Positions 29,321 through 36,833 of a stretch of 36,833 bases of DNA are shown here, piece after piece. Made by a program: the position numbers and the translations under genes. Under the pieces are notes generated by a model that saw nothing but the letters and a program-made list of their open reading frames with translations, ran no database searches and was not told the origin of the DNA. The stretch is from Kineosporiaceae bacterium (GTDB lineage Bacteria; Actinomycetota; Actinomycetes; Actinomycetales; Kineosporiaceae), in the NCBI GenBank assembly GCA_016794595.1, contig JAEUJN010000021.1, positions 1-36,833 on the forward strand, in the 5' to 3' direction. The first letter of the stretch is position 1. Every line of letters starts with the position of its first letter.

Positions 29321-32300
29321 TCACCGGCCGCTGCTTCCCGGACTGGAGTGCCACAGCTTGCGGTTCGGGGTGCGGTTCGGTTTGGGCGAGGTGTCGCCGT
29401 CCTCCTCGGCGGCCACGACCCGCCGGGTGTCGCGGACCTCGATCCCCGGGGTCTGCAGATCGGCGTACGGCGACTGGACGTAGCCCGTGGCGGGGTGGAC
29501 GAGCACCCGGCGCAGATGGGAGGCACCCCCACCCATGCCGCCGGCCCGTTCCCGGCGACCACCGGTGGCCGGGTCCCGGTCGCCGGACGGCAACCCGGTG
29601 GCGGCGTCCGCGGCAGCGGTGGCCTCTCGTTCCTGGTCGGCGGTGCGCACGAACCCCCCGCCGAAGGCCACCGCTGGAGGCCGGAACCCCTCCCGGTCGG
29701 CCCGGTGCTCACCCGATCGCCCCGAGGACCGGCTGGTCTCACGATCCGGGTGCGGCGCGGAGGCCATCAGGTCCTCGACGGCTGCCGCCCCGCCCTCGGT
29801 CCAGGCCTCCCAGAGCACCGGTAGTTCCCAGGCGCCGGTCGCCCGCAGGGACACCCCACGGTGGCCGGTGCGGCGCAGCACCCCTCGCACCACGAGCAGC
29901 CAGGAGTGGAAGACCGTGGCGGCGTAGGGACCTTGGACGTCCTCGAAGAAGGTGGCGTCCACCGGCCCGGTGGCGTCGTCCAGGGTCAGGAAGACCACTC
30001 GGCGTCCGGAGCGGATCGGCGGGGTCTGGGTGGCCACCTTGACCCCGGCGATCAACAGCTCGCTGCGACTGCGGCGGGTCAAGAGCTCCCGGGAACGGGT
30101 CACCCCGAGCTCGGTCAGCAGCGGGGTGTAGAAGTCGAGCACGTGGCGGCTGACGTCCAGGCCGAGGATCTCGAGCTCGGCTCGGGTCCGCTCGGCGCCG
30201 CTCATCTCGGGCAGCCCGGTGGGGACGGTCTGGTTCGGCGCATCGCCGAGATCGAGCGTGAGCTGGACGGCCTGGTCCTCCGGCGCGACCGCCGCTCGGG
30301 GAGCCCTGGACTGACCCGCCGCAGCCTCTCGCACCGGATCACGCCGCTGCTCCTCCCCGCGACCGCCCGCAGCCCCGGAGCGGACGCCCCCTCGCCCGCG
30401 ACCGCTCGCTCTGCGACCCCCGCTCCAGCGGTCGAGTTCGGCGACCTGGAGCAACAGGTCACGCCGGGTCAGCCGATCCCGACGCCGGATCGGCAGGCTG
30501 GTGTCCAGCCCGTACAGGGAGTCGAACGCCCCGGTGAGCACCAACCGCTCGACGACGGGACGGCTCACTGCCGCTCGATGCCAGAAATCGGCCAGGGTGG
30601 CATACGGGCCACCGGCCACGATCCGGGCCACCTCGGCCTCGGCGATCCCCTTCACCTCGGTCAGCGGCAGCCTGATGCCGTACCCCCGCCCGTCGGGCAG
30701 GTCCGGGTCGAGCAGGGTCGGTGCCGGATCGAGGAGGTCCTGCTCTCTCACGAGCTCGACCCGGTAGGTGTTCCCGGAGGCGTTCACATCCAGCGGCAGG
30801 ACGGTGACACCCAGGTTGCGGGCGTCGTCCAGGATCAGGCGTTTGGGGTACATGCCCGGGTCGTGGGTGAGCACCCCGGCCAGGAACGCCGCCGGGTGGT
30901 GGGTCTTGAGCCAGGCGGACTGGTAGGTGGGCAGGGCGAACGCGGCGGCGTGCGCCCGGCAGAACCCGAACGAGGCGAAGGCCTCGAGCACCTGCCAGAT
31001 CCGGGTGACCGTGGCCTGGTCGTACCCACGGGCCAGGGCCGTGGGCACGAACCACGCCTGAACCTGTTCGCGGCCCTCGGGTGAGCCCATCGCCCGGCGC
31101 ACCTCGTCGGCCTCGGCCAGGGAACGCCCGGTGATCGTGGAGACGATCTGCAGCACCTGCTCGTGGAAGACCACCACCCCGCTGGTCTCGTAGAGGGCGT
31201 GGGCCAGATCCGGGTGCAGGTGATCGACCTGGTCCCACCCCTGACGAGCGCGCAGGAACGGAGTGATCATGTCCGACTTGACCGGACCGGGACGGAACAA
31301 CGAGATGTCGATCACGAGGTCGGTGAAGGTCTGGGGACCGAACCGCCCGATCAGCTCGCGCTGTCCCGGCGACTCGATCTGGAAGCACCCCAGGGTGTGC
31401 GCGGTACGGATCATGCGAAAGGTGGGCTCGTCGTCCAGAGGGACCGCATCCAGGTCGATCTGCCGCCCCTGCACCCGCCGTACCTCACCGATCGCGTGGG
31501 ACATCGCCGACTGCATGCGGATGCCGAGAACGTCCAGCTTGAGCAGTCCCAGATCCTCGACGTCGTCCTTGTCGAACTGGCTCATCGGGAACCCGTTCCA
31601 GCTGGCCTCCACCGGTGTGCGGTCCAGCAGGCCGATGTCGGACAGCAGTACCCCGCACGGGTGCAGCGCGACATGGCGCGGCAGCCCGTCGAGCCGTTCG
31701 ACCAGGCCGAACAACAGGTCCAGTTGAGGGGAGTCCAGCCCGGCGGCGCGCAGTTCGGGTAGCTCGATCAGGGCGTCCCGGACGTCACGGGCCCGGATGT
31801 GCGGGAACGATGTGGCAATGGCGGCGATCTCTTCCGGTGGCAGGCCCAGGACGGCGCCGACGTCCCGGATGGCGTGCCGGACCCGGTAGGTGTCCATCAT
31901 CGACACGCAGGTCACCCGCTCGGCACCGAACCGGTCGAGGATCTCGGTGTAGACCTCCTCCCGCCGGGCGGACTCGACATCGATGTCGATGTCGGGCAGG
32001 TGCGCCCGCAGCGGGGACAGGAACCTCTCCATCAGCAGGTTGTGCTCGATCGGGTCCACCCCGGAGATCCCCAGCAGGTGGTTGACCAGGCTGCCGGCCC
32101 CCGACCCCCGAGCGGCCACCCGCACCCCGATCGCCCGGATGTCGTCGCAGACGGCCGCGACGGTGAGGAAGTAGGAGGCGTACCCGAGGGTCTCGACGGT
32201 GGCCAGTTCGGCGTCCAGCCGGTCGGTGACCCGGCGCAGCAGGGCGGGGCCGGCGGAGGGATACCGGTGGGAGATCCCGGCATCGCACCGCTTCCGCAGG

Positions 32301-33379
32301 GCGGACAGCGGATTCTCGGCCGGGCCCAGGCCGAGCAGGTACGGCTCGGGGAAGTGCACCGACCCGATCCCGAGGTCGGCCCGCGGGTCGAGGACGCACC
32401 GCCGGGCCAGGGCCCGGGTGTCGGCGAGCAGGGTGGCACCGTCGTCGGGCTCACCGGCGGCCCGGGCGACCCGCTCGGCCCGGGCGGTCATCTCCGCCGG
32501 CGAGGTGAGGTAACCCTGCGCCGTGGTCCGGTCGAGGTGACGGTCGTCCAGGGGCACCAGACGGCGGGCGGCGTCCAGGACGTCCACGGTGATCGAGTCC
32601 TCCGGCCGGGCGTACCGGACGGCGTTGGTGAGCACCGCCGGCAGCCCCGCGGACCGGGCCAGGGCGAGCATCCGGCCGGCGTGGACCAGGCTGCCCGGAG
32701 TGTGCGGTGGGCCGTCATGGCAGACCACCTCGATCGCCGTGCACCCCGGAGGGAGGGCGTGGCGCCAGCGCTCCAGTACCGCCCTGGCCAGATCGGGACG
32801 ACGGGCCAGCACCGCCCGGCCCACCTCGGAGTCCGGGCCCAGCAGGACGACGAGTGCCGGCGGGCCGGAGCGGTCGCCCCGGGAGTCCGGGACGGCGTGC
32901 TCGACGACAGCATGCTCGGCGACCAGTTCCATGGTGCTCACCGGCCGCCCGCGCTCCCCCCGCAGGTGGGTTGCCGAGACCAACCGGCACAGCCTTCCCC
33001 ACCCCTCGCCGGCCAACCGCCCCTGCCCGGTCTCACCTCCCAGGGCGAGCACGGTCACCCGCGGATGGCGGGGATCGACGCTGACCCCACCCCGGACCGG
33101 GGTCCGACGGCGATCGCTCGGACGCCGGCGGGTGTCACCCCGCTCACTGCCCAGGTGGTCCCCGAGGGGTTCGATCGCGAGGTCGACCCCGAGCACCGGC
33201 TCCAGACCTGCCCCCTTGCAGGCCTGGACGAACTTCACCGCTCCGTAGAGTCCGTCACGGTCGGTCAGGGCCAGCGAGCTCATGCCCTGGCCTGCCGCCT
33301 GCTCGACCAGGACTGCCGGAGTGGACGCGCCGTACCTGAGCGAGTAGCCGGAGGCCACGTGCAGGTGGGTGAACGGCAC
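29321..33379 (-). CDS. dnaE2: Error-prone DNA polymerase III alpha subunit DnaE2 (ImuC)
   Basis: DnaE2 is a C-family polymerase used in damage-induced mutagenesis. The protein has 1352 residues, longer than the usual 1050-1150. The N-terminal PHP domain starts 'FTHLHVASGYSLRYGAS' with H5 and H7. The catalytic aspartates are D463 and D465 in 'LPDIDIDVE' and D616 in 'LLKLDVLG', with the same spacing as E. coli DnaE. The fingers, helix-hairpin-helix region and OB fold ('GVKVATQTPPIRSGRRVVFL') follow. Extra length comes from Arg/Gly-rich insertions near 75-110, 1015-1060 and 1230-1300. The end 'RKLWHSSPGSSGR' is typical of actinobacterial DnaE2. GTG at 33379 follows a GAGGGG site, nine bases after the HEPN gene. 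Confidence 0.93.
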   Translation of the reverse strand: MPFTHLHVASGYSLRYGASTPAVLVEQAAGQGMSSLALTDRDGLYGAVKFVQACKGAGLEPVLGVDLAIEPLGDHLGSERGDTRRRPSDRRRTPVRGGVSVDPRHPRVTVLALGGETGQGRLAGEGWGRLCRLVSATHLRGERGRPVSTMELVAEHAVVEHAVPDSRGDRSGPPALVVLLGPDSEVGRAVLARRPDLARAVLERWRHALPPGCTAIEVVCHDGPPHTPGSLVHAGRMLALARSAGLPAVLTNAVRYARPEDSITVDVLDAARRLVPLDDRHLDRTTAQGYLTSPAEMTARAERVARAAGEPDDGATLLADTRALARRCVLDPRADLGIGSVHFPEPYLLGLGPAENPLSALRKRCDAGISHRYPSAGPALLRRVTDRLDAELATVETLGYASYFLTVAAVCDDIRAIGVRVAARGSGAGSLVNHLLGISGVDPIEHNLLMERFLSPLRAHLPDIDIDVESARREEVYTEILDRFGAERVTCVSMMDTYRVRHAIRDVGAVLGLPPEEIAAIATSFPHIRARDVRDALIELPELRAAGLDSPQLDLLFGLVERLDGLPRHVALHPCGVLLSDIGLLDRTPVEASWNGFPMSQFDKDDVEDLGLLKLDVLGIRMQSAMSHAIGEVRRVQGRQIDLDAVPLDDEPTFRMIRTAHTLGCFQIESPGQRELIGRFGPQTFTDLVIDISLFRPGPVKSDMITPFLRARQGWDQVDHLHPDLAHALYETSGVVVFHEQVLQIVSTITGRSLAEADEVRRAMGSPEGREQVQAWFVPTALARGYDQATVTRIWQVLEAFASFGFCRAHAAAFALPTYQSAWLKTHHPAAFLAGVLTHDPGMYPKRLILDDARNLGVTVLPLDVNASGNTYRVELVREQDLLDPAPTLLDPDLPDGRGYGIRLPLTEVKGIAEAEVARIVAGGPYATLADFWHRAAVSRPVVERLVLTGAFDSLYGLDTSLPIRRRDRLTRRDLLLQVAELDRWSGGRRASGRGRGGVRSGAAGGRGEEQRRDPVREAAAGQSRAPRAAVAPEDQAVQLTLDLGDAPNQTVPTGLPEMSGAERTRAELEILGLDVSRHVLDFYTPLLTELGVTRSRELLTRRSRSELLIAGVKVATQTPPIRSGRRVVFLTLDDATGPVDATFFEDVQGPYAATVFHSWLLVVRGVLRRTGHRGVSLRATGAWELPVLWEAWTEGGAAAVEDLMASAPHPDRETSRSSGRSGEHRADREGFRPPAVAFGGGFVRTADQEREATAAADAATGLPSGDRDPATGGRRERAGGMGGGASHLRRVLVHPATGYVQSPYADLQTPGIEVRDTRRVVAAEEDGDTSPKPNRTPNRKLWHSSPGSSGR

Positions 33380-33388
33380 GGGCCCCCC

Positions 33389-33817
33389 TCAGGTGCACGA
33401 GGGCAAGGCGTCGGGCAGCACCTGGTGCTGCGGCAGGCCGAGGATCCCCTCGACCACGTGCTGGAACGACTCGGCATCGCGCACCAGGTCGTCGGCCTCC
33501 CGGGGGGTGGCGGTGGCCCGGCCGGACTCGATGGCGGCCCGCCGACCGGCGGTGGCCTCGAAGAACGAGGCCCACTCGGCCAGTTCGGGGGCCACCTTCG
33601 GCACCAGTTCCCACACGCTGCGGGGGCCACCGCGGCTGCTGCGCCCCCGGACGGCCAGCACCGCGGCAGCCGAGCGGAGCGCTGCCAGATGAGCGGCGAC
33701 GTACCGCTCCCCCGCCGTCCGGGCAGCACAGGCCTGCAGCAGCCCGGCCGAGGAGCGATCGAGCAGGGTGAGCGCGCTCGCGGGAACGGGTGGCCTGCTC
33801 AGGGTCGTCGCCGTCAT
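33389..33817 (-). CDS. SAV_6107-type HEPN domain protein
   Basis: The 142-residue protein begins MTATTLSRPPVPASALTLLD and is mostly helical. 'LLDRSSAGLLQACAARTAGERYVAAHLAALRSAAAVLA' in two stretches and 'WELVPKVAPELAEWASFFEATAGRRAAIE' match the actinobacterial SAV_6107 HEPN family encoded next to DnaE2. No R-x4-6-H RNase motif is evident, so it is not an obvious HEPN nuclease. Its role in mutagenesis is unknown. The ATG at 33817 has GGAGGA eight bases upstream. An in-frame ATG at 33958 would add 47 residues across a 12-bp tandem repeat but has no ribosome site. It is translated just before dnaE2. Confidence 0.85.
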   Translation of the reverse strand: MTATTLSRPPVPASALTLLDRSSAGLLQACAARTAGERYVAAHLAALRSAAAVLAVRGRSSRGGPRSVWELVPKVAPELAEWASFFEATAGRRAAIESGRATATPREADDLVRDAESFQHVVEGILGLPQHQVLPDALPSCT

Positions 33818-33852
33818 CTCTGGTTCCTCCGTCGGTGTGCGGTCGATCGCGG

Positions 33853-33887
33853 GTCCGGTCGTGCGTCCGGTCGTGCGTCCGGTCGTG
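33853..33887. repeat. Nearly three 12-bp tandem units upstream of the HEPN gene
   Basis: GTCCGGTCGTGC is repeated twice perfectly and a third time nearly completely, in the 156-base gap between the DUF6504 gene and the chosen HEPN start. Confidence 0.85.
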
Positions 33888-33973
33888 TGGTGGTCGGAGC
33901 TCTCGGGGTCGTCGTCATCGATCTCGTGATCAGGCCCGCTCGGGCCACGAGCCGCCATCGGCTGGAACCGACA

Positions 33974-34384
33974 TCAGTCCGCGATGCGCAGCAGGCGCCA
34001 GGCGCCGGTGTCCGGGCGGACGCCGGTGTCATGGCAGAGGTCGTAGACCCCGACGATCCCGCTGCTCCCGCGAGCGGCCTCGACCCGCCAGACCTCGTAC
34101 TCCTCGGCGAGCGGCGCCGCCCACCCGGTGGCCACTGCGGTCGGCCCCTCGAGGTACTCCGCCCCGGATGACGGCGGACTCGAACTGCTCGTCTCACCGA
34201 TGACCGGCGGCCCGGCAGCCGTTCCGTGATGGATCGCCCGGGCTGCCGCCCCCATCCACCAGGACCGCCGCTCACGCCAGTGACCGAGCACGTCCCGGAC
34301 CACGTACCGACTGCCCCGCCACCGGAAGGCCGCCGGCTGGACTCCGATCACCCCGACGTGCACGACCTCGACGAATCGGCGCAT
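33974..34384 (-). CDS. DUF6504 family protein
   Basis: The 136-residue protein starts MRRFVEVVHVGVIGVQPAAF and continues 'RWRGSRYVVRDVLGHWRERRSWW', which is the DUF6504 signature. The C-terminal half has 'EYEVWRVEAARG', 'VGVYDLCHDT' and 'GAWRLLRIAD', forming a small beta-rich fold. A 25-residue Ser/Pro-rich insertion near 62-80 separates the halves. Proteins of this family are found beside dnaE2 and imuB in actinobacteria; function is unknown, but involvement in the mutasome is a fair inference. The ATG at 34384 has GGGGAGG five bases upstream. It is the first gene after the LexA-controlled promoter at 34644-34695, with a structured leader of about 260 bases. Confidence 0.85.
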   Translation of the reverse strand: MRRFVEVVHVGVIGVQPAAFRWRGSRYVVRDVLGHWRERRSWWMGAAARAIHHGTAAGPPVIGETSSSSPPSSGAEYLEGPTAVATGWAAPLAEEYEVWRVEAARGSSGIVGVYDLCHDTGVRPDTGAWRLLRIAD

Positions 34385-34643
34385 GATGCCTCCCCTTGCT
34401 CACGGACTCGCTGGCGGCGAGCCGGACGTCCTGACCTCGTGTCAGCTCCTCGTGTCAGCTCCGGGGAAGCGGAGGGTCGGGCGCCTCGGGTGGGAGTGCT
34501 TCCCCACACCCCACCCGAGGACGACCGGGTGACGGATCCGTGGCGGGGCGGGGTCGAGTCGCCCCGCCACGAACCTGCCGTCCGAACGACTGGCCCCTGA
34601 CAGGAGAGCCCGATCACCACCCTGGCCAGGCGCTGATCGGGTC
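34385..34643 (-). ncRNA. Structured untranslated leader between the LexA box and DUF6504
   Basis: No credible gene is seen in 34385-34643. In transcript order three strong hairpins occur. First, CCCGATCA/TGATCGGG arms (about 34638-34612) enclosing the palindrome CCTGGCCAGG. Second, a perfect 12-bp stem CGTGGCGGGGCG/CGCCCCGCCACG with a 9-nt loop (34571-34539). Third, a perfect 11-bp stem CCTCGGGTGGG/CCCACCCGAGG (34520-34484). A perfect 13-bp tandem duplication follows (34460-34435), then the DUF6504 ribosome site. It may be a leader that attenuates or stabilises the operon mRNA, or a separate small RNA. Pairings are read from the sequence; function is inference. Confidence 0.5.
34435..34460. 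repeat. Perfect 13-bp tandem duplication
   Basis: CCTCGTGTCAGCT occurs twice head to tail (34435-34447 and 34448-34460), about 50-75 bases upstream of the DUF6504 start, within the structured leader. Confidence 0.9.
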
Positions 34644-34659
34644 TCGAACAGACGTTCGA
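34644..34659. promoter_or_regulatory. LexA (SOS) box
   Basis: TCGAAC-AGAC-GTTCGA is a perfect match to the palindromic actinobacterial/Gram-positive LexA box TCGAAC-N4-GTTCGA. It lies just downstream of the -10 of the minus-strand promoter, where LexA would block initiation until DNA damage. It also lies about 190 bases upstream of the divergent Fic gene, less well placed for its control. Confidence 0.88.
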
Positions 34660-34667
34660 ATACCTCG

Positions 34668-34695
34668 ACTGTACACCTGTCCGTACGCATGTCAA
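34668..34695 (-). promoter_or_regulatory. Promoter of the DUF6504-HEPN-dnaE2 operon
   Basis: On the minus strand a consensus -35 TTGACA (34695-34690) and TACAGT (34673-34668) are separated by 16 bases. The predicted start site falls at or within the LexA box. This is one of the best sigma-70-type promoters in the window. Confidence 0.65.
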
Positions 34696-34802
34696 CGCCA
34701 CCCGAATGGCCGATCCCGGGCCCTCGCACCATCCGTACGAGCCAGTGGCAAGTGCTCGGCGGTCGCTGGGCTCCGACCGCGCAAACGTCAGCGACGCTTC
34801 GA

Positions 34803-34808
34803 TATAAT
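34803..34808 (+). promoter_or_regulatory. Possible -10 element of the fic gene
   Basis: A consensus TATAAT lies 40 bases before the Fic start, inside a 28-base AT-rich island (34800-34828) unusual for this DNA. No good -35 is seen at 16-18 bases upstream. Confidence 0.45.
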
Positions 34809-34847
34809 TACGTTTAGATCACTGTAAGGTCACCTGAGGAGGGTCTG

Positions 34848-36143
34848 ATGACGGGTGAACCCCTCGGTCGCGGACAGACCGGGAGTGTTCTGTCCGGCTG
34901 GCCCTCCCTCGGCCGCGAGTCCCGGCCCTGGCCCAGTACCCCCGGGCAAACCCCCTGGGCACCCTCCTGGATCCCCACCGATGGGGCCTCCGCTGAGTCC
35001 ATCGGCCCGCACACGGTCGAGGTCGCCGCCGTCCCCCCGATCGCCGACCGGGCGGTCGCCCTCGGCCCCACCACCAGCGACACGGTCGCCGCCGCCCAGG
35101 CCGCGATCCGGGTGCTCGACGAGACCACCACCGTCGATCTGACCGCGCTGGCCGGTGGATTGCTGCGCTCGGAGTCAGTGGCCTCCTCCAAGATCGAGCA
35201 CCTGGACGCCAGTCAGCGTGAGCTCGGCATGGCCATGCTGCGGGGGGTGCCGGTGCACAGCGCCGCCGCCCACGTGGCGGCCAATGTGCGCGCCATGACC
35301 GCGGCCGTCGCCCCCGGAGCCGGTGACGTGCCCTACCACGTGGTCGATCTGCTGCACATCCACCGCCTGCTGATGGAGGCCGACCCCTACGAGGGCGGCT
35401 GGGCCGGGCGACTGCGGACCATGCAGAACTGGGTCGGCGGCGGTGAGCTCACCCCACACGGCGCGCTGTTCGTCCCACCCGCCCCCGAGCGGGTGCCCGC
35501 CCTGATGAACGACCTGGTGCGCTTCTGCAACCGCACCGACCTCGACCCGATCACCCAGGCGGCGATCGCCCACGCCCAGTTCGAGACCATCCATCCCTTC
35601 ACCGACGGCAACGGCCGGACCGGGCGGGCGCTGGTGCACGTCGTCCTGCGCCGCCGCGGCCTGACCCGGCGCACCGTGGTGCCGGTCTCGACCGTGCTGC
35701 TCGCGGACGTCGAGGGCTACTTCGCGGGCCTGGACGACTACCGGGCGGGAGACCTGGACGGCTGGGTGACCCGCTTCGCCGCCGCCGCCACCCGGGCCGC
35801 CTCCTCCGGGCTGCGCCTGGCCACCGACCTGGCCGCCCTGCGCACCCGATGGCAGGAGGCGGCCCGGGCACGGCGTGGATCGGCGGTGGCCACCCTGCTG
35901 GAGGCTCTGCCCGGACGCCCGGTGGTCGACATCGAGTCGCTGCGGGAGCTGACCGGCGGGGTGGCCGACAAGAACATCTACGCCGCGATCGACCGTCTGG
36001 TGGCCTCCGGGGTGCTCACCGAGCTGTCCGGCGGGGGACGCAACCGGGTCTGGGCCGCTCTCGGCGTCCTGGAACTGCTCGAACGGCTCGAAGGCGAACT
36101 CGGACGCCGCTCCCCCGCTCGCGCCGTCAGTCCTCGACCCTGA
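34848..36143 (+). CDS. Fic-domain protein (probable AMP transferase)
   Basis: Fic proteins transfer AMP or related groups from nucleotides to protein side chains. The protein has 431 residues. After an 80-residue Pro/Gly-rich N-terminus comes the Fic N-terminal region with 'LLRSESVASSKIEHLDASQ', where S113-SKI-E117 fits the class II inhibitory motif (S/T)xxxE(G/N), except that H118 replaces Gly/Asn. The Fic core has 'DLLHIHRLLME', 'PYEGGWAGRLRTMQNWVGG' and the catalytic HPFTDGNGRTGR beginning at H249. A C-terminal winged-helix-like part (about 345-420) ends the protein. The ATG at 34848 has GAGGAGGG five bases upstream. No antitoxin gene is adjacent, in keeping with an intramolecular inhibitory helix. 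Confidence 0.92.
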   Translation: MTGEPLGRGQTGSVLSGWPSLGRESRPWPSTPGQTPWAPSWIPTDGASAESIGPHTVEVAAVPPIADRAVALGPTTSDTVAAAQAAIRVLDETTTVDLTALAGGLLRSESVASSKIEHLDASQRELGMAMLRGVPVHSAAAHVAANVRAMTAAVAPGAGDVPYHVVDLLHIHRLLMEADPYEGGWAGRLRTMQNWVGGGELTPHGALFVPPAPERVPALMNDLVRFCNRTDLDPITQAAIAHAQFETIHPFTDGNGRTGRALVHVVLRRRGLTRRTVVPVSTVLLADVEGYFAGLDDYRAGDLDGWVTRFAAAATRAASSGLRLATDLAALRTRWQEAARARRGSAVATLLEALPGRPVVDIESLRELTGGVADKNIYAAIDRLVASGVLTELSGGGRNRVWAALGVLELLERLEGELGRRSPARAVSPRP

Positions 36144-36741: not shown

Positions 36742-36762
36742 TCATGTGCAGCCACCGAGCAG

Positions 36763-36833
36763 CCCCCCCCCCCGGGGGGGGGGGACGGGGGGATCGCGGG
36801 CGCCTGGGGGGGGGAGGGGGGGGGGGGGGGGGG
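36763..36833. other. Homopolymer C/G tract at the window end, likely artefact
   Basis: A run of 11 C is followed immediately by 11 G (36763-36784), then mostly G with short interruptions to the last base, ending in a long G run. This resembles contig-end errors from poly-G reads and should not be interpreted biologically. It may hide the true upstream region of the pentapeptide gene. Confidence 0.75.

Follow-up and report, generated by a model that had tools for sequence, protein, structure and literature searches.

The 259-nt leader that separates a LexA box from the first gene of a translesion-polymerase operon in the window (the whole 36,833-nt stretch of Kineosporiaceae DNA analysed here) contains a series of hairpins, and it is close to certain that this leader element is RNA and conserved. 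The structure is established, and the function is inferred: sequence comparison makes it likely that the leader acts in cis on expression, and, with a probability of about 0.55, it would be the 5′ part of an SOS-induced mRNA, a modular structured RNA that limits or times the translesion-polymerase operon after release of LexA. Control of error-prone polymerases sets the mutation rate of a damaged cell, and accounts of it in actinobacteria usually centre on LexA and protein partners. Conserved hairpin loops in distant actinobacteria point to an undescribed RNA layer controlling mutation-causing repair.

The order of elements in the leader from 5′ to 3′ is P1, P2, P3, P4, a tandem 13-mer, the Shine-Dalgarno sequence and the DUF6504 start, within the following layout.

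34668–34695, minus strand: promoter-like TTGACA-16-TACAGT, matching the consensus at 10 of 12 positions (shuffles of the region would give 0.1)
34644–34659, minus strand: LexA (SOS) box TCGAACGTCTGTTCGA, a perfect 16-nt palindrome placed at the expected transcription start
34609–34641, minus strand: P1, nested hairpin with a 10-nt palindrome at 34621–34630; loop not conserved
34535–34575, minus strand: P2 (hairpin A), with loop A ACUCGACCC at 34551–34559
34484–34520, minus strand: P3 (hairpin B), with loop B UGGGGAAG at 34499–34506
34459–34474, minus strand: P4, small hairpin with loop CUUCCC(C) at 34463–34469, complementary to loop B and to the Shine-Dalgarno sequence
34435–34460, minus strand: exact 13-nt tandem duplication, found only in the window genome among the relatives aligned
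34388–34395, minus strand: Shine-Dalgarno sequence GGGGAGGC, predicted to pair with P4
33974–34384, minus strand: DUF6504 gene (PF20114; E 9.6e-18), start at 34384
33389–33958, minus strand: HEPN_SAV_6107 gene (PF18726; E 5.4e-32), start codon uncertain
29321–33379, minus strand: dnaE2-type polymerase III alpha gene with PHP, alpha, finger, HHH and OB domains

The LexA box lies at the promoter, marking the window leader as SOS-regulated. A preliminary description of this DNA had reported about 260 nt between LexA box and first start codon and an SOS promoter ahead of the leader; the measured length and the perfect LexA box with its promoter-like sequence bear this out. The name DnaE2 is taken from the operon and from similarity, not from a dedicated model, and HEPN-M (SAV_6107) is tabulated as an actinobacterial family in a table of PMC3710099. 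The intergenic region that holds the SOS promoter is common to a divergent Fic-domain gene (PF02661; 34848–36143, plus strand), on whose strand a TATAAT-like stretch occurs near 34803. The contig ends (window 36760–36833) in C and G homopolymer runs, which probably arose as an error of sequencing or assembly.

The leader folds at −151.1 kcal/mol, compared with −126.8 (sd 5.5) in 200 dinucleotide shuffles (z −4.41), none of which was as low; this score, together with loop motifs far above shuffled and permuted motifs (see below), rules out chance hairpins. The stems announced in the preliminary description are real. The nested hairpin is present, and since its 10-nt palindrome is unable to close its own loop, the predicted fold takes neighbouring bases. 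The perfect 11-bp stem corresponds to P2 (34540–34550/34560–34570), which reaches 16 contiguous pairs when G-U is counted, whereas the supposed perfect 12-bp stem proved to have only 11 contiguous base pairs (P3; 34484–34494/34510–34520), followed by a bulge and four further pairs. P4 is a fourth hairpin that had been overlooked. The 13-nt tandem duplication is an exact repeat, but does not lie beside the ribosome site as had been described, because about 40 nt separate its end from the Shine-Dalgarno sequence; nor is it a conserved part of the leader, having no counterpart among 16 relatives aligned. The nested folding used here leaves out loop-loop pairing.

Very stable stems shortly after a promoter might suggest a transcription attenuator, in which strong hairpins stop part of the transcripts ahead of the operon. 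This is improbable: no intrinsic terminator or U run follows the hairpins on the operon strand in 33900–35000, where the sole terminator-like site is on the opposite strand inside the Fic gene, and termination has no need of the conserved loops described below.

Relatives of the leader were collected in several sets. DUF6504 is present in 21 of 58 genomes, and a DNA search with the leader in 396 genomes of the order gave two orthologous matches besides the window, in Kineosporia sp. R_H_3 and A_224 (G007 and G004; 76 and 78% identity over about 90–115 nt). Several families have, upstream of DUF6504 and in the same order, a LexA box, a CUCGACCC-loop hairpin, a GGGGAAG-loop hairpin and CUUCCCC. 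The HEPN gene was found in 246 of 394 genomes; the loci read comprise 30 from the search listing and 60 picked by hand, with new families favoured and most of family f37 left out, the first f37 loci being mostly without a LexA box. Leaders were counted only with a LexA-like box by pattern. The set of 94 leaders (34 families) combines 71 independent HEPN-derived leaders, 20 of the discovery set and three (L057, L060, L061) that were picked up by the hairpin A model and are hence positive by construction. Searched against the class with 16 candidates scored per genome, this model gave matches in 12 genomes and missed carriers later recovered via HEPN; four matches (L062–L065) were treated as false, because they have neither a LexA box in the locus nor CUCGACCC at the match. 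A third set consists of the best 80 of 128 named DUF6504 loci, 72 of them with a LexA box.

When every 6-mer in predicted hairpin loops of the 94 leaders is listed, with no motif given in advance, CGACCC ranks first (49 leaders in 20 families; 0.6 leaders expected), followed by UCGACC, CUCGAC and GGGGAA, the last in 28 leaders of 14 families (0.1 expected). UCGCGG is present in 7 leaders from 5 families, where 0.15 leaders would be expected, and in the 20 shuffles no 6-mer exceeds 4 families. With no selection for stems, 51 of the 94 leaders have UCGACCC at most 160 nt from the LexA box; it occurs 57 times, 51 of them with a stem of at least 7; for 60 permuted 7-mers the mean is 1.68 leaders (maximum 10), and 0.15 (maximum 2) with a stem.

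Hairpin A is carried by 13 of the 20 discovery leaders and, in the independent set, whose leaders were likewise not chosen by stem, by 32 of 71 (15 of 27 families). Hairpin B occurs there in 23 leaders (13 families) and the UCGCGG hairpin in 20; 50 of the 71 have at least one of the three hairpins, and 21 have none, which is counted against the reading as a cis-acting leader. Among the 72 named DUF6504 leaders the numbers are 41 for A, 12 for B, 12 for UCGCGG and 46 for any (stem threshold 6); after removal of seven duplicates and at threshold 7, A is present in 30 of 65. Named carriers include Kineosporia, many Nocardioides, Phycicoccus (A in two of four), Kineococcus (B) and Embleya (B). None of the three hairpins was found in the LexA-box leaders of Pedococcus, Knoellia and Humibacillus or in six Streptacidiphilus leaders of 32–34 nt. 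The modules occur singly and in all combinations, many leaders having A without B and P4, and two A hairpins stand in tandem in three f43 genomes (L057, L060, L061). UCGCGG, the third recurrent hairpin loop, is mostly located upstream of A or B within the same leader (L003, L093, L095, L115, L125, L135, L153 and others).

Relatives keep the loops while the stems change with compensation, indicating hairpins that are real, conserved and predicted to be transcribed. When 15 P2 hairpins are aligned, one row being misaligned, 90.0% of cells are paired compared with 71.9% in shuffles, and two-sided changes occur at 11 of 16 pairs. In 22 P2 hairpins aligned on the loop, 97.5% of stem cells are paired (52.6% shuffled, 37–55% slid) and the covariation score is 1.107 versus 0.258 in the control; this alignment is thus above shuffles in paired cells and covariation score, and its two-sided changes, at 11 of 11 pairs, are not above column shuffles (mean 10.4). 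P3 aligned with the nrdJ hairpins gives 98.0% paired (61.1% shuffled) and two-sided changes at 12 of 13 pairs. In the 22-hairpin P2 and the P3-nrdJ alignments the hairpins were chosen for bulge-free folding, and the paired percentages are inflated for this reason. Compensatory changes in relatives had been named as the test for the three stems; P2 and P3 show them, and for P1 the 16 aligned relatives have no conserved equivalent.

Over the stems of 49 A hairpins, which were picked for folding with G-U allowed, 48 G-U and one A-C were counted, and therefore the structured molecule is most likely an RNA read in the direction of the operon. The reverse strand of the 94 leaders yields A four times and B six times. 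DNA cruciforms were rejected on this strand bias and the few reverse-strand calls, although the bias comes from hairpins selected with G-U permitted. Open frames are present in the high-GC leader, as a conserved short protein would need, but loop A differs in length by single bases between relatives and the leaders of two Kineosporia strains (L003 and L004) differ by 1-nt indels, making such a protein unlikely. That the leader encodes a conserved short protein, or that its hairpins act as DNA, is thus highly improbable, in line with the preliminary view that the stretch holds no credible gene.

The SOS operons headed by these leaders encode the translesion polymerases dnaE2, imuB-dnaE2 or dinB, usually with a HEPN gene. 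In G576, whose leader has hairpin B with P4 and an A-like loop ACGACCCCC, HEPN comes first and is followed by ImuA′-like (our reading; no Pfam family), Y-family ImuB-like and dnaE2-like genes. In G541, G404, G408 and G444, which carry hairpin A, a DinB-type Y-family polymerase gene comes after HEPN, with a methyltransferase gene in between in G541; in family f49 (G466, G450, G433) the ORF filter detected no polymerase gene directly behind HEPN. HEPN is found in 33 of 37 named A-positive loci, and the other four carry DUF6504 and dnaE2, which weakens the case for HEPN as a necessary partner. Because the leaders also head HEPN-first operons, they are tied to SOS operons mostly with a translesion polymerase rather than to one gene. 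The RNA sits between the LexA box and the first start codon though the first gene varies (DUF6504 or HEPN), which supports a leader acting in cis.

Among 64 sides of perfect LexA boxes in four genomes (G000, G004, G034, G422), B with P4 is found at two, the polymerase-operon leaders of G000 and G034, and three others have a single weak hairpin call. At L163 and L167 (G000) and L181 (G004) a perfect LexA box is separated from the next ORF by a short leader that lacks the hairpin array; the ORFs at L163 and L181 resemble DinB, and that at L167 resembles the 13E12/DUF222 family. Of 296 genomes, 22 contain the pattern GTGGGGAAGC-N20-50-CTTCCCC, with 23 matches in all. This number is not above that of the reversed pattern, which matches 26 times (11 of these in a single genome), and the signal is the location of the matches rather than their raw number: 17 of the 23 lie 39–171 nt behind a LexA box, all 17 with HEPN downstream, and one of the remaining six lies between nrdR and nrdJ.

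A CUUCCC/UUCCCC-type partner is located within 110 nt downstream of hairpin B in 23 of 30 B leaders (2.05 expected), and the loop of P4 is constant across lineages while its stem differs. Eight leaders, of 27 tried, had a start and Shine-Dalgarno sequence locatable by script; in six of these (L002, L003, L004, L006, L100, L144) the P4 strand pairs with the Shine-Dalgarno sequence with a probability of 0.98–1.00 in nested folding, and in L075 and L147 it does not. P4 is predicted to form duplexes of −8.6 to −17.4 kcal/mol with the Shine-Dalgarno sequence and of −12.7 to −16.3 kcal/mol with loop B. Because P4 is predicted to pair with either, a Shine-Dalgarno switch is hypothesized, in which CUUCCCC would be the switch strand. 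Its pairing with the Shine-Dalgarno sequence GGGGAGG would hold translation low, and its capture by the GGGGAAG loop of hairpin B would free the ribosome site. Docking sites for a putative protein or RNA could be provided by loop A and, in certain lineages, by the UCGCGG loop, and the docked factor would decide between the two states or protect the message. Such a switch cannot be the general function, because many leaders have A without B and P4.

Loop A may also pair within the leader. Its longest complement there has a mean of 5.43 nt, versus 4.72 in shuffles (54 leaders, start roughly located), and complements of at least 7 nt occur in 15 of the 54, 13 of these 15 in Nocardioidaceae, typically as GGGGUCGA before the Shine-Dalgarno sequence; in the window leader the complement is only 6 nt, a chance-like value (p 0.45). 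A loop A pseudoknot would therefore be mainly a lineage feature. In Nocardioidaceae leaders such as L211, L227 and L263, GGGGUCGA(G) complements loop A from between hairpin A and the Shine-Dalgarno sequence; in L227 loop ACUCGACCC is opposite GGGUCGAGU, and in the unrelated L269 CUUCGACCC is opposite GGGUCGAA. Mimicry of a tRNA T-arm by loop A was considered and dropped, because the closing pair does not fit.

In many leaders hairpin A begins a few tens of nucleotides from the LexA box. This position, the long stems and the occurrence of modules singly and in every combination would fit 5′ hairpins with protein-bound loops that protect or process the message and determine how long the polymerase mRNA lasts, with no translational switch involved. 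Invariant loops, however, would be needless for this unless a specific protein reads them, and the pairing of loop B with P4 would be left unexplained, so that this role on its own is rather unlikely.

Hairpin B also occurs outside SOS operons, at nrdJ, the class II ribonucleotide reductase gene. A hairpin B model (R2) built from 10 SOS and 9 nrdJ hairpins was used for a covariance search of 74 chosen genomes that include most of the sources. At E 0.01 or better there were 39 matches, of which 16 lie in SOS leaders, 15 between nrdR and nrdJ, one directly behind nrdJ and seven elsewhere. The window genome has two matches at E 0.05, in the SOS leader and at nrdR-nrdJ (150 of 3614 candidates scored); the latter is a UGGGGAAG-loop hairpin at C94:9146–9177 (L318, L344), a few nucleotides after the nrdR stop and before nrdJ. 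Ten of the 15 nrdR-nrdJ cases belong to f45 and the remainder to f1, f2 and f5; the hairpin is also present in Nocardioidaceae, families f2 and f5, with compensated stems. In a separate survey (nrdJ in 124 of 148 genomes; 30 loci fetched), 9 of 26 readable loci have a B hairpin upstream of nrdJ, one of them weak. A LexA box lies 1.25–1.41 kb upstream in three genomes, the window genome included. In Propionibacterium acnes, nrdR and nrdJ are described as co-transcribed (PMC3848588). G495 has two B-type hairpins with near-identical stems (L346:1501–1532 and L354:1501–1532), one that immediately follows nrdJ and precedes a DEAD-box helicase gene, the other ahead of a gene with an RNase H-like domain.

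The nrdR-nrdJ hairpin B is often without P4, which is counted against the reading as a cis-acting leader with a switch. It is tentatively suggested that actinomycetes have a second, RNA-level SOS regulon, in which one trans factor reads the UGGGGAAG hairpin in translesion-polymerase and nrdR-nrdJ mRNAs, coupling error-prone polymerase synthesis to deoxynucleotide supply; the hypothetical factor would be either a protein that binds RNA or the SOS leader's own CUUCCCC strand. A related alternative is an SOS-induced small RNA, a leader released or terminated short that acts in trans, for example by pairing of CUUCCCC or CUCGACCC with other mRNAs. The conserved C-rich loops, the recurrence between nrdR and nrdJ of a loop complementary to CUUCCCC, which would make the nrdR-nrdJ message with its GGGGAAG loop a natural target, and the window leader's lack of a loop A complement beyond chance are in its favour; it is nonetheless unlikely, given a leader without a terminator and minimal Nocardioides leaders in which hairpin A directly precedes the Shine-Dalgarno sequence of the first gene.

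For the preferred reading of a cis-acting leader, a conserved RNA on the polymerase transcript, with hairpin A in more than half of the families of the independent set, would give a direct handle on SOS mutagenesis, and the presence of hairpin B at the ribonucleotide reductase operon means that a link between polymerase and dNTP supply can be tested. Single mutants are simple to make because the loops are short and nearly invariant.

The preliminary proposal of an undescribed structured RNA is supported by the covariation and by Rfam 15, in which no family reached its gathering score: the six matches in window 33600–35600 were at chance level, the highest scoring 22.1 bits where the threshold is 100, and 20 related loci gave none. 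DUF6504 has no mention in the literature searched, and titles and opening lines of abstracts on dnaE2/imuB leaders or small RNAs, SOS small RNAs, LexA in structured-RNA surveys and nrdJ/nrdR motifs contain no description of an SOS leader RNA. The SOS leader RNA is thus considered undescribed relative to Rfam 15 and these titles and abstract openings, a 2017 survey of 224 motifs lying outside the comparison. LexA, SOS, dnaE and HEPN are likewise absent from the main text of a 2010 survey of candidate structured RNAs (PMC2864571), which the present element resembles as a leader RNA found by comparative covariation.

Among known systems, ANTAR-target RNAs are defined by a pair of hexanucleotide loops in which position 1 is A and position 4 is G, with a 2–25-nt linker between them (PMC8164766). 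The window leader was rejected as a member of this class, since its loops by fold (GGCCA, ACUCGACCC and GGGGAA) do not follow the loop rule. Like the ANTAR-target RNAs described there, the SOS leader is an actinobacterial mRNA leader whose hairpins stand in tandem and have conserved loops that a protein would recognise; unlike them, its loop A is 8–12 nt long and reads NCUCGACCC, its loop B starts with G, and it follows a LexA box. Riboswitches are characterised by conserved unpaired bases that form a metabolite pocket; in the alignments examined, the conserved positions of the SOS leader are located in hairpin loops. As in leaders in which an anti-Shine-Dalgarno strand sequesters the ribosome site, a C/U-rich strand can pair with the Shine-Dalgarno sequence or with an upstream loop; in contrast to that class, the SOS leader is modular and has no known ligand, its switch strand is not present in all members, and conservation resides in the hairpin loops rather than in internal junctions.
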